NCBI RefSeq assembly: GCF_036488675.1
Contig: NZ_CP133148.1
Coordinates: forward strand, 620,001-684,000
DNA length: 64,000 nucleotides
Direction: 5' to 3'
Source of the DNA: Sinorhizobium chiapasense
GTDB taxonomy: Bacteria > Pseudomonadota > Alphaproteobacteria > Rhizobiales > Rhizobiaceae
Position numbers and translations under genes: made by a program. The first letter of the stretch is position 1. Each line of letters opens with the position of its first letter. The notes beneath the pieces are model-generated. The model was not told where the DNA came from, made no database searches, and was given only the letters and a program-made list of their open reading frames with translations. This document shows positions 38,879 to 41,603 of this stretch, piece after piece.

Positions 38879-38908
38879 TTGACAAGCGAATATCGTGTCG
38901 TCTTTCTA
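38879..38908 (+). promoter_or_regulatory. Candidate promoter of the riboswitch-gbcAB transcript
   Basis: A perfect -35 box ttgaca at 38879-38884, then an 18-base spacer and tttcta as a weak -10. The region just upstream is unusually A/T-rich (tttataataaataatatc near 38843-38860). Transcription would begin about 50 bases before the riboswitch aptamer. Confidence 0.4.
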
Positions 38909-38965
38909 GGAGCGGATGTCGCCAATCAGCAAATGCAAAGGCGCCGTGCGCGCTTAGATATGGAC

Positions 38966-39140
38966 ACTCAAGGTGCCGCTCGAGGGAGGGCGGAGAATTG
39001 GGAAGCCGGTCAGATTCCGGCGCTGCCCCCGCAACGGTGGTGGAGCGAAAGCCACGGCAAAAGGCCACTGGACGGTGTGTCCGGGAAGGCGCCGGGCGGG
39101 TCCCTCTCGGGGCCGCTCCAGAGCCCGGAAACCAGCCTTG
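38966..39140 (+). promoter_or_regulatory. Cobalamin riboswitch
   Basis: All main conserved blocks of the B12 aptamer occur in order: ggtgccgctcgagggagg, then ggaagccggt and ccggcgctgcccccgcaacggt (to 39038), the B12 box gccactg at 39064-39070, ccgggaaggcgccgg, and gagcccggaaaccagcc at 39121-39137. It is on the plus strand, 122 bases before the ATG of the Rieske oxygenase gene, and no other gene is between. Binding of adenosylcobalamin normally shuts off the downstream gene. Confidence 0.93.
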
Positions 39141-39224
39141 GGACGAAAATCGACCGTAACTGGTTGCGGCGGGCAGCCGGATCGGAGCCTTTGACGCGCC
39201 GGCATCATTGTCGGCGTTGGTTCC

Positions 39225-39261
39225 TGTCCTGCCTCTCCGAACTGCTGAACGAGGACAGGAC
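39225..39261 (+). promoter_or_regulatory. Hairpin hiding the ribosome binding site of the Rieske gene
   Basis: tgtcctgcctc at 39225-39235 is complementary to gaggacaggac at 39251-39261 with one bulged A. The second strand is the Shine-Dalgarno region directly before the ATG at 39262. Such a stem would block translation start and fits a riboswitch acting on translation. The pairing is seen in the sequence; its use is inferred. Confidence 0.6.
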
Positions 39262-40506
39262 ATGGACATTCAGAACGACATGCTGCGCCGGCTCACGAAC
39301 CGCCGCGAGGGCTATAGCCTCGACCGCGCCTTCTACATCAACCCGGATTATTACCGGCAAGACCTCGAGCACATCTGGTACAAGGACTGGCTCTTTATCG
39401 GTCACGACTGCGAAATTCCACGGGCAGGCAACTATTTCACTGTTCAGGTCGGCGACTATCCGATCGTCGTCGTCCGCGACCGGCAGGGAGCGATCCGCGC
39501 GCTTCACAATTCCTGCCGCCATCGCGGCTCGCGCGTCTGCACGCAGCACAAGGGCTCCTCGGCCAAGCTTGTCTGTCCCTACCACCAGTGGACCTACGAA
39601 CTGGACGGCAAGCTGCTGTTCGCGCGTCAGATGCCGGAAGGCTTCGATCCGGCTGAGCACAGCCTGAAGCCGGTGCATTGCGAAACGGTCGGCGGCTATA
39701 TCTTCATCAGCCTCGCCGAGAAGCCGATGGACTTCCAGGCGTTCCGTGAGACGGTCGCGGCCTATCTTGCGCCGCATCGTCTTGGCGAAACTAAGGTCGC
39801 CTTTGAGAGCACGATCGTCGAGAAGGGCAACTGGAAGCTCGTCTGGGAAAACAACCGCGAGTGCTACCATTGCGCCGCCAACCACCCGGAGCTTTGCCGC
39901 ACCTATCCGGAGGCCCCGACGGTAACCGGCGTGCAGGGCTCGATGGACGATCCGGAGATTTCCGAGCATTGGGCGAGATGCGAGGCGGCCGGGTTGCCGA
40001 GCGCCTTCAAGATCGCTCCGACCGGCCAGTTCCGCATGACGAGAATGCCGCTCATCAACGACGCGGAGAGCTACACCATGTCCGGCGTCAAGGCCGTCCG
40101 CAAGCAGCTTTCGGCCGGGGTGAACGAGAGCCGCATCGGCACACTGCTGCTCTTCCACTATCCGACGACCTGGAACCATATACTCGGCGATCACGCCATT
40201 ACCTTCCGTGTGCTGCCGCTCGGGCCGGAGCTGACGCAGGTCACGACCAAATGGCTGGTCAACAAGGATGCGGTCGAAGGCGTCGACTACACGCTCGAGG
40301 ATCTTACCCACGTCTGGACGGAGACCAACGACCAGGATCGCCAGATCGTCGAAGAAAACGCCTTCGGCATCCGCTCGCCAGCCTATGAGCCGGGTCCCTA
40401 TTCGGCCGAGCACGAAGGTGGCGTGATGCAGTTCGTCGAGTGGTACTGCAATTTCATGCAGAACCGCCTCCAAGGCGACGCCGCTCCTCTCTCGCGGGTG
40501 GCCTGA
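39262..40506 (+). CDS. Rieske oxygenase subunit, glycine betaine monooxygenase (GbcA) type
   Basis: 414 residues. The Rieske [2Fe-2S] ligands are Cys85, His87, Cys105 and His108 (CRH ... CPYH). The mononuclear iron site has Glu200, His203 and His208 (ECYHCAANH) and a later Asp near residue 360. The closest family I recognise is GbcA, which removes one methyl from glycine betaine, giving dimethylglycine and formaldehyde. Stachydrine or carnitine demethylases are close alternatives. The ATG at 39262 is preferred over an in-frame TTG at 39208. The reductase gene follows after two bases, and a cobalamin riboswitch precedes it. Confidence 0.86.
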   Translation: MDIQNDMLRRLTNRREGYSLDRAFYINPDYYRQDLEHIWYKDWLFIGHDCEIPRAGNYFTVQVGDYPIVVVRDRQGAIRALHNSCRHRGSRVCTQHKGSSAKLVCPYHQWTYELDGKLLFARQMPEGFDPAEHSLKPVHCETVGGYIFISLAEKPMDFQAFRETVAAYLAPHRLGETKVAFESTIVEKGNWKLVWENNRECYHCAANHPELCRTYPEAPTVTGVQGSMDDPEISEHWARCEAAGLPSAFKIAPTGQFRMTRMPLINDAESYTMSGVKAVRKQLSAGVNESRIGTLLLFHYPTTWNHILGDHAITFRVLPLGPELTQVTTKWLVNKDAVEGVDYTLEDLTHVWTETNDQDRQIVEENAFGIRSPAYEPGPYSAEHEGGVMQFVEWYCNFMQNRLQGDAAPLSRVA

Positions 40507-40508
40507 CC

Positions 40509-41603
40509 ATGGAAATGGGTTCCTCTTTTCGCCATTTCGACGAGTTGCATCCGTGGATCGACCGGCAGCATCTGCTCGAATGCATATCGGCCGTGGTCGA
40601 GACTGCGGACGTGATGACCTTCACCTTCCGTTCGGACAAGCCGGCTTGGTTCCGTTATCTGCCGGGGCAGTTCGTGACGCTCGAGCTGCCCGTCGGCGAG
40701 GAACCGGTGATGCGCACCTACACGCTGTCATCTTCGCCATCACGCCCGCTCTCGGTCGCCGTCACAGTCAAGGCGCAACCGGACAGCATTGGCACGCGCT
40801 GGATGTTCGACAAACTGAAGCCGGGCATGAAGCTGAAGGCGCTCGGGCCGCTCGGGGATTTCAGCTTCGTTCGCCATCCCGGTGAGAAATACCTGTTTAT
40901 CTCGGCCGGCTCCGGTGTCACGCCGATGATGTCGATGACGCGGTGGATAGCGGACTGCGCACCCGACACGGACGTCACCTTCATTTCCTGCGCGCGCAGG
41001 CCGGAGGACCTCCTGTTCCGCTCCGAACTGGAGGTTCTCGCCCGCCAGATGCGGCGGCTCAATCTCGGCTTTCTGGTCGAAGGTCACGAGGCGCGCCACG
41101 GCTGGCATGGGCTGCGCGGTCGCATTGACGCGACGAAATTGCCGCTGCTCGCGCCGGACTTCCTGGAGCGGACGGTCTTTTGCTGCGGGCCTGAACCCTT
41201 CATGCGCGGCATCAGGGAGATGCTGAAAGGCGCCGGCTTCGATATGGCGCGCTATCACGAGGAGAGCTTCCAGCCGGCAGCCGCGCCGGCGGCCGAGGAG
41301 CTCGCGGTGCGCGCCGGCCCGGGGCCGGGCGCTGCGGCCGAGGCGGCGCGTGTCACCTTCACCATGAGCGGCAAGGACGTGACAGTGGTGCCGGGCCAGA
41401 CGATCCTGCAGGCCGCCCGCGCCAACGGTGTCAGGATCGGTGCCGCCTGCGAGGGCGGCATCTGCGGCACCTGCCGGGTGATGAAGGTCGCCGGCGAAGT
41501 CGAGATGAACCACAATGGCGGCATTCTCGATGACGAGATCGAGGAAGGCTACATCCTTGCCTGCTGCTCGCGGCCGCTCGGCGACGTGCAGATCGAGGCG
41601 TGA
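40509..41603 (+). CDS. Ferredoxin reductase of the Rieske system (GbcB type)
   Basis: 364 residues. N-terminal FNR-like half: FAD-binding RTYTLSSSPSRPL and NAD-binding SAGSGVTPMMSMTRW. C-terminal plant-type [2Fe-2S] domain: CEGGICGTCRV plus a fourth Cys in LACCSRP. A Pro/Ala-rich linker of about 30 residues joins them. It would pass electrons from NAD(P)H to the Rieske oxygenase encoded two bases upstream, and the two form one riboswitch-controlled operon. Confidence 0.88.
   Translation: MEMGSSFRHFDELHPWIDRQHLLECISAVVETADVMTFTFRSDKPAWFRYLPGQFVTLELPVGEEPVMRTYTLSSSPSRPLSVAVTVKAQPDSIGTRWMFDKLKPGMKLKALGPLGDFSFVRHPGEKYLFISAGSGVTPMMSMTRWIADCAPDTDVTFISCARRPEDLLFRSELEVLARQMRRLNLGFLVEGHEARHGWHGLRGRIDATKLPLLAPDFLERTVFCCGPEPFMRGIREMLKGAGFDMARYHEESFQPAAAPAAEELAVRAGPGPGAAAEAARVTFTMSGKDVTVVPGQTILQAARANGVRIGAACEGGICGTCRVMKVAGEVEMNHNGGILDDEIEEGYILACCSRPLGDVQIEA

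Follow-up and report, generated by a model that had tools for sequence, protein, structure and literature searches.

The 64,000-nucleotide stretch of the Sinorhizobium chiapasense genome analyzed here (contig NZ_CP133148.1, positions 620,001 to 684,000; hereafter the window) contains a two-gene operon for a Rieske oxygenase and its reductase that is preceded by a complete cobalamin riboswitch (Table 1). The same genome encodes a set of corrinoid-dependent methyltransferase genes of the MtgBCD type, and across related soil and plant-associated bacteria the riboswitch is kept at this operon where an MttB-family methyltransferase is present and dropped where it is absent, with few exceptions. We consider it likely that the operon encodes a B12-independent, O2-dependent isozyme, i.e., a backup under a B12 riboswitch, for a quaternary-amine demethylase of the same cell that depends on B12.

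The cobalamin family (RF00174, gathering score 31.5) was the only RNA family over its gathering score when the window was scanned using cmscan with Rfam 15, and a search of the whole genome returned the same 110.9 bits. An initial annotation, made from the letters alone, had described a complete cobalamin aptamer directly before a Rieske oxygenase and reductase pair, and both parts are borne out by the match to the full model and by two open reading frames with fitting Pfam domains. The aptamer ends 107 bases ahead of the oxygenase start, and the reductase gene follows 2 bases after the oxygenase gene. The match begins 12 bases ahead of position 38,966, at which the initial annotation had let the element start; given the -10-like hexamer in the first bases of the match, this position may lie near the transcript start. 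Of 27 orthologs listed, 24 have a hexamer of the TTA[GTA]AT type in the upstream region. From its sequence, we infer that the leader aptamer would act as a cobalamin-binding RNA with an effect on expression. Altogether, five cobalamin riboswitches of the genome (6.87 Mb on five contigs), including this one, score over the cut-off, and there is one weak match. Downstream of the others are genes for a periplasmic binding protein and for a nitroreductase-family protein that in our own reading appears BluB-like, as well as, judging from open reading frames only, apparent B12- or cobalt-type transport genes. The weak match (L006, G000:C1:1898025-1898189; 27.8 bits and thus under the cut-off) precedes a gene cluster that encodes a CobW protein.

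Table 1. Features of the riboswitch-controlled Rieske operon and its leader (positions within the window).
Feature	Positions	Strand	Basis
Cobalamin riboswitch aptamer, RF00174	38954-39154	+	cmscan 110.9 bits, E 6.3e-27, match to the whole model (positions 1-189)
Linker, probable expression platform; has block GCGGnGGGC and a hairpin at the Shine-Dalgarno region (39222-39230 paired to 39252-39260)	39155-39261	+	conservation, pairing
Rieske non-haem iron oxygenase, GbcA/Stc2 quaternary-amine demethylase group, 414 aa	39262-40506	+	PF00355 and PF00848; PDB 3n0q, 3vca, 4qup; NCBIfam GbcA under cut-off
Partner reductase of flavin/ferredoxin type, 364 aa	40509-41603	+	Pfam FAD_binding_6, NAD_binding_1, Fer2; NCBIfam GbcB under cut-off
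TTAGAT, putative -10-like hexamer, first bases of the aptamer match	38954-38959	+	sequence
Putative operator for a GbdR/CdhR-type AraC-family activator: direct repeat TGTCG-N16-TGTCG with a 21 bp period	38896-38921	+	sequence pattern

The oxygenase passes the Pfam cut-offs for both Rieske oxygenase domains (PF00355 with 66.7 bits; PF00848, Ring_hydroxyl_A, with 120.1 bits), and its closest solved structures match over the full length, i.e., 3n0q (534.7 bits), 3vca (518.2 bits), and 4qup (517.9 bits), the latter two of which we take to be the stachydrine demethylase Stc2. Like the GbcAB glycine betaine monooxygenase of Pseudomonas, the window operon is an oxygenase and reductase gene pair with clear NCBIfam similarity, and the earlier label "GbcA/GbcB type" is right as a group. 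However, both proteins fall short of the curated equivalog cut-offs (515.9 bits versus 670 for GbcA, NF058607; 397.5 bits versus 500 for GbcB, NF058606), which is why the oxygenase was not filed as GbcA. By similarity, it would be a quaternary-amine demethylase of the GbcA/Stc2 group but not a certified GbcA. The name glycine betaine demethylase, also proposed initially, is no more than plausible for an oxygenase that misses the GbcA cut-off and matches Stc2-type structures over the full length too. Among the matches listed, its nearest named relative is from Ensifer sp. IC4062 (93%). At four over-cut-off GbcA loci (L145, L148, L152, and L164; 20 found), no cobalamin riboswitch was seen within the stretches scanned.

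The presumed B12-dependent counterpart is encoded about 1.25 Mb from the window riboswitch. There, one of the four MttB superfamily (PF06253) genes of the genome is divergent from, and beside, the gene of a corrinoid protein, and genes for DUF1638, MetF-like, pterin-binding (MtgD-like), and RACo proteins are found further along the same strand. With PF06253, B12-binding, Pterin_bind, and RACo domains all passing their Pfam cut-offs, this locus has the full set of MtgBCD-type parts. NCBIfam MtgC is the best match of the corrinoid protein, which we call MtgC-like only because its 209.6 bits fall short of the cut-off of 370. The MttB-family protein of the locus matches PDB 4yyc with 1154.7 bits and the glycine betaine methyltransferase 9yce with 415.9 bits. 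Against 9yce, a second MttB protein of the genome (L014) scores nearly as high with 413.9 bits and a third lower with 325.7 bits, so that similarity does not fix the substrate of each. A comparable gene set has been described in Ruegeria pomeroyi, in which MtgC and MtgD are required for aerobic growth on glycine betaine and MtgB-type proteins, MetF2, RamA, and DUF1638 are named alongside them (PMC12478193). This 2025 report of an aerobic MtgBCD route in marine bacteria also notes marine bacteria that have GbcAB without MtgBCDE, whereas in S. chiapasense a GbcAB-like pair and Mtg-like genes occur in one genome; a riboswitch comes up once in the report, in a reference title about a glycine riboswitch (PMC12478193). 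The initial statement that no corrinoid gene is nearby holds for PF06253, the only family checked: none of the four genes is in the window, and the one closest to it lies some 18 kb to the left.

Riboswitch and counterpart co-occur in two partly overlapping genome samples. The named sample comprises the 80 best named oxygenase matches among the matches listed, with 79 genomes searchable for MttB; its riboswitch states were called from the upstream core by sequence pattern, and Rfam was used on the negatives and part of the positives. The core is present upstream of 55 of the 80 loci, and all 25 negatives are Rfam-negative as well; Rfam confirms the positives L033, L038, L042, L053, L060, L078, L096, L101, and L103 and, by coordinates, at least 14 more. 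Both riboswitch and MttB were found in 53 of the 79 genomes and neither in 24, with one locus each for the riboswitch alone (L033) and MttB alone (L046). The family sample consists of 151 genomes drawn evenly from the family of the window, partly the same genomes as in the named set, with an oxygenase threshold of E 1e-150 or better and an Rfam-based riboswitch state for all 53 loci besides the window. Among the 54 genomes with the oxygenase, 36 have both, 15 neither, one the riboswitch only (G909, locus L175), and two MttB only (G917 and G906). Both tables fit a riboswitch that is kept with the B12-dependent counterpart and dropped without it, with five discordant entries altogether (Fisher p 5e-18 for the named and 2e-10 for the family table, neither corrected for descent). 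The other 97 family genomes have no oxygenase at this threshold and many of them have MttB, so that the Rieske enzyme is an optional partner.

The link extends to the corrinoid protein, as MtgC orthologs (89-98% identity) are present in 29 of 50 genomes that are exactly the MttB-positive ones; hits of about 34% in MetH-sized frames turn up also in genomes without an MtgC ortholog. Each of the 50 named genomes searched has one or more cobalamin riboswitches that pass the cut-off, including the 21 that are Rfam-negative at the oxygenase locus and hold others elsewhere. Two of the discordant entries, L033 and L175, are riboswitches in MttB-less genomes that have decayed to 57.9 and 61.3 bits and have neither the GCCACTG box (B12 box) nor an intact CTGCCCCCGC core, as the loss of the partner would lead one to expect, perhaps reflecting a recent loss of function. 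Three riboswitch-bearing genomes (G014, G018, and G036) have a single MttB gene, which in each of them adjoins mtgC.

A wider draw of 385 alphaproteobacterial genomes yielded 41 with an oxygenase match at a threshold of 1e-60. Rfam scans of 23 of these loci (L105-L127) revealed a riboswitch upstream in seven (L106, L107, L108, L111, L113, L114, and L115), all of them in genomes with MttB, while 10 of the 16 riboswitch-less homologs are in genomes without it. In one distant genome, that of the class-level relative G459 (L107/L134:6155-9464), two cobalamin riboswitches are arranged head to head, one facing the Rieske operon and the other nrdA and nrdB (1017 and 504 bits). The B12-independent ribonucleotide reductase NrdAB is a known kind of B12-riboswitch target and is repressed by B12. 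By analogy, the Rieske operon of G459 seems to keep the company of a known B12-independent isozyme.

On trees, used to correct for descent, the two traits change together, and in no supported pair do they go opposite ways. On the tree of the family draw, MttB and the riboswitch change nine times each, and among seven supported independent pairs, the two differ the same way in 6.0 and the opposite way in 0, while in 0.9 the riboswitch does not differ (median p 0.03, range 0.016-0.125). Adding the nine nearer class-level rows gives 6.4 same, 0 opposite, and 0.6 without difference among seven pairs (median p 0.016), and with all 74 rows, the values are 7.4, 0, and 1.6 among nine pairs (median p 0.008, range 0.008-0.06). 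The named tree has three changes of MttB and four of the riboswitch, numbers too small for a test, with three pairs of which 2.4 go in the same direction and 0 in the opposite one.

Conservation and pairing point to the linker behind the aptamer as the probable expression platform. Its GCGGnGGGC block is conserved in 53 of the 54 leaders examined (of 55 with a riboswitch; L103 was dropped, its aptamer end not being found). The pairing probability of the Shine-Dalgarno sequence averages 0.80 in riboswitch-bearing leaders and exceeds 0.6 in 45 of 55 versus a mean of 0.45 and 4 of 25 in riboswitch-less leaders, all counted on related sequences without correction. The block can alternatively pair with the aptamer core, but a local duplex test gives no more than a weak hint of this. 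In 38 of 54 leaders the best window is the block, in 31 of 54 the best window pairs with the core, and because shuffles match the observed energy in 55 of 324 cases, the pairing does not stand out clearly from them. A global duplex test of the linker against the aptamer was discarded with meaningless energies (mean z 0.08). After the four other riboswitches of the source genome, the block does not appear in the stretch inspected, save for a partial match in L004. At three Mesorhizobium loci (L092, L093, and L096), the distance between aptamer core and gene exceeds that of most other loci by about 100 bases (core at -344 to -347), and the leaders of L092 and L096 have additional palindrome-rich sequence between aptamer and start codon.

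A possible second input is indicated by the operator-like direct repeat upstream of the -10-like box, the half-sites of which are TGTCGT and TGTCGC in the window. Repeats of the form NGTCG-N16/17-NGTCG are present in 77 of the 80 orthologous Rieske upstream regions, and at least two TGTCG are found in all 25 upstream regions that lost the riboswitch. The same pattern, in the direction of mtgC, is seen in 21 of 21 mtgB-mtgC intergenic regions (the source genome plus 20 of the 29 genomes with MtgC) and in 5% of the shuffles of these regions, a control made on this side only. At the Mtg-like locus of the source genome (L015), one occurrence of the looser pattern (13114) precedes the MetF-like and MtgD-like genes, and no such repeat was found ahead of its second MttB gene (L014) or its second Rieske gene (L018). 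The site of CdhR has GGTCGC half-sites with a 15 bp spacer, and those of GbdR, SouR, and ArgR have been called very similar (PMC5806209). This suggests that one class of quaternary-amine-sensing activators may serve both demethylase systems.

Other loci and neighbors were also considered. The second, more distant oxygenase/reductase pair of the source genome (409 bits) is found at L018 (C1:3992000-4010000) near ETF-like genes and an FMN oxidoreductase, by our own reading, the latter of which we assume to be DgcA-like; the whole-genome RF00174 search gave no riboswitch over the cut-off there. Behind the MttB-family gene nearest to the window (L014:5087-9769) comes an FMN oxidoreductase gene like that of L018, and a divergent LysR-type gene precedes it. 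From similarity, the same type of FMN oxidoreductase is thus a predicted partner of a B12-dependent demethylase at L014 and of an oxygen-dependent one at L018. Gene neighborhood was rejected as a substrate clue: In a comparison over 80 loci, in which some of the chosen open reading frames are shadow frames, neighbors reappear at set positions, yet those of the window that could be identified (threonylcarbamoyl-AMP synthase, DUF6656, GH25, CorA, acyl-CoA-dehydrogenase-like, and enoyl-CoA hydratase genes) are uninformative on betaine.

These observations can be put together in a model of a two-input catabolic switch across the Alphaproteobacteria, which we regard as somewhat better than an even bet. 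A GbdR-type, substrate-responsive activator would probably switch on both demethylase systems in response to betaine, as suggested by the operator-like repeats, and the riboswitch would route the methyl groups. Under the isozyme explanation held likely above, cobalamin bound to the leader aptamer when B12 is plentiful would promote the hairpin over the Shine-Dalgarno sequence and block translation of the Rieske oxygenase, and tetrahydrofolate and methionine would receive the methyl groups by way of MtgBCD. Under B12 scarcity, translation would be released and the Rieske enzyme would take off the methyl group as formaldehyde. Lineages that lost the B12 route would then have discarded the riboswitch. 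For the substrate common to both systems, the balance tips modestly toward glycine betaine.

The initial annotation had offered two readings of its own. One was a coupling to corrin supply in which the riboswitch stops betaine demethylation when B12 is plentiful and glycine and one-carbon units are no longer needed for corrin synthesis. In industry, betaine is indeed used to stimulate B12 production (PMC8123684). However, this reading predicts that the riboswitch is retained wherever the cell senses B12, and its absence here from 21 of 50 genomes that keep cobalamin riboswitches elsewhere therefore speaks against it. We have set it aside as very unlikely because the riboswitch is lost together with the Mtg-like genes while other B12 riboswitches persist, a link that corrin demand leaves unexplained. 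The other reading, i.e., that the oxygenase replaces a B12-dependent methyltransferase, is well supported by the co-occurrence in the two samples and by the tree. Shared ancestry could produce such a pattern if unrelated causes had removed the riboswitch and the Mtg genes from the same lineages, and indeed the named tree has few MttB changes and a single clade makes up the largest block without a riboswitch (22 rows). Yet the nine MttB changes of the family draw, with the riboswitch never going the opposite way in the supported pairs, the promoter repeats that survive aptamer loss, and the other cobalamin riboswitches retained by the same genomes make this explanation improbable.

A switch of the opposite sign, with the Rieske enzyme working along with the Mtg system and not in its place, is the least probable of the alternatives. 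Activating corrinoid riboswitches have been reported (PMC10653944), which also weighs against the repressing direction that we infer, but the Shine-Dalgarno hairpin of riboswitch-bearing leaders and the head-to-head arrangement with the B12-repressed nrdAB genes argue for repression. A variant of the isozyme reading, the odds of which overlap with those of our preferred explanation, deserves more weight though we hold it to be doubtful: the Rieske enzyme might act on another quaternary amine (proline betaine, carnitine, or a choline-like compound) and replace another MttB paralog. This would be in line with the score under the GbcA cut-off, the full-length match to Stc2-type structures, and the multiple MttB paralogs of many genomes. 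On the other hand, the single MttB of three riboswitch-bearing genomes adjoins mtgC, and its ortholog in the source genome is related to the glycine betaine methyltransferase, albeit too distantly to fix the substrate.

Several points count against the backup hypothesis or narrow its basis. Locus L046 (Ciceribacter lividus) keeps MttB and MtgC with the riboswitch gone and TGTCG repeats remaining, G917 and G906 have MttB without the riboswitch (G906 at 59% identity and on another branch), and the aptamer of L183 is worn (68.8 bits, altered core) though its genome has two MttB genes. Among the class-level homologs without a riboswitch, 6 of 16 are in MttB-bearing genomes, all on two other branches of the tree. 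The named set by itself amounts to three pairs and no significance, and the tree statistics as a whole stand on 7-9 independent pairs on a quick tree with long-branch warnings. That both systems share one substrate is assumed. The spacing of the operator-like repeat varies between 21 and 22 bp, and single matches mean little because a looser pattern is frequent, with 11 occurrences in the window (its own site included) and 6 in 16 kb of L015.

The principle of isozyme control is known from B12 riboswitches at metE/metH and nrdAB/nrdJ. As in these cases, RF00174 is here directly before a B12-independent enzyme while the genome also encodes a B12-dependent one that presumably has the same function. 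The difference is that a catabolic Rieske demethylase is paired with an MtgBCD-like system, not MetE with MetH or NrdAB with NrdJ, and that absence of the B12-dependent partner goes with loss of the riboswitch. Isozymes of B12-dependent enzymes have been listed as a category of cobalamin riboswitch targets (PMC3766115). Our literature searches, which did not extend to supplementary regulon tables and most subscription papers, found nothing that connects betaine demethylases with B12 riboswitches, and as far as these searches go, the pairing of these two enzymes appears to be new. The recent date of the aerobic MtgBCD report (PMC12478193) may explain why such a backup went unnoticed.

If our interpretation is true, another isozyme pair, and a catabolic one, joins the logic of B12 riboswitches. 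It would suggest how bacteria with both kinds of betaine-demethylation route choose between them and would tie betaine turnover in soil and the rhizosphere to the supply of B12.

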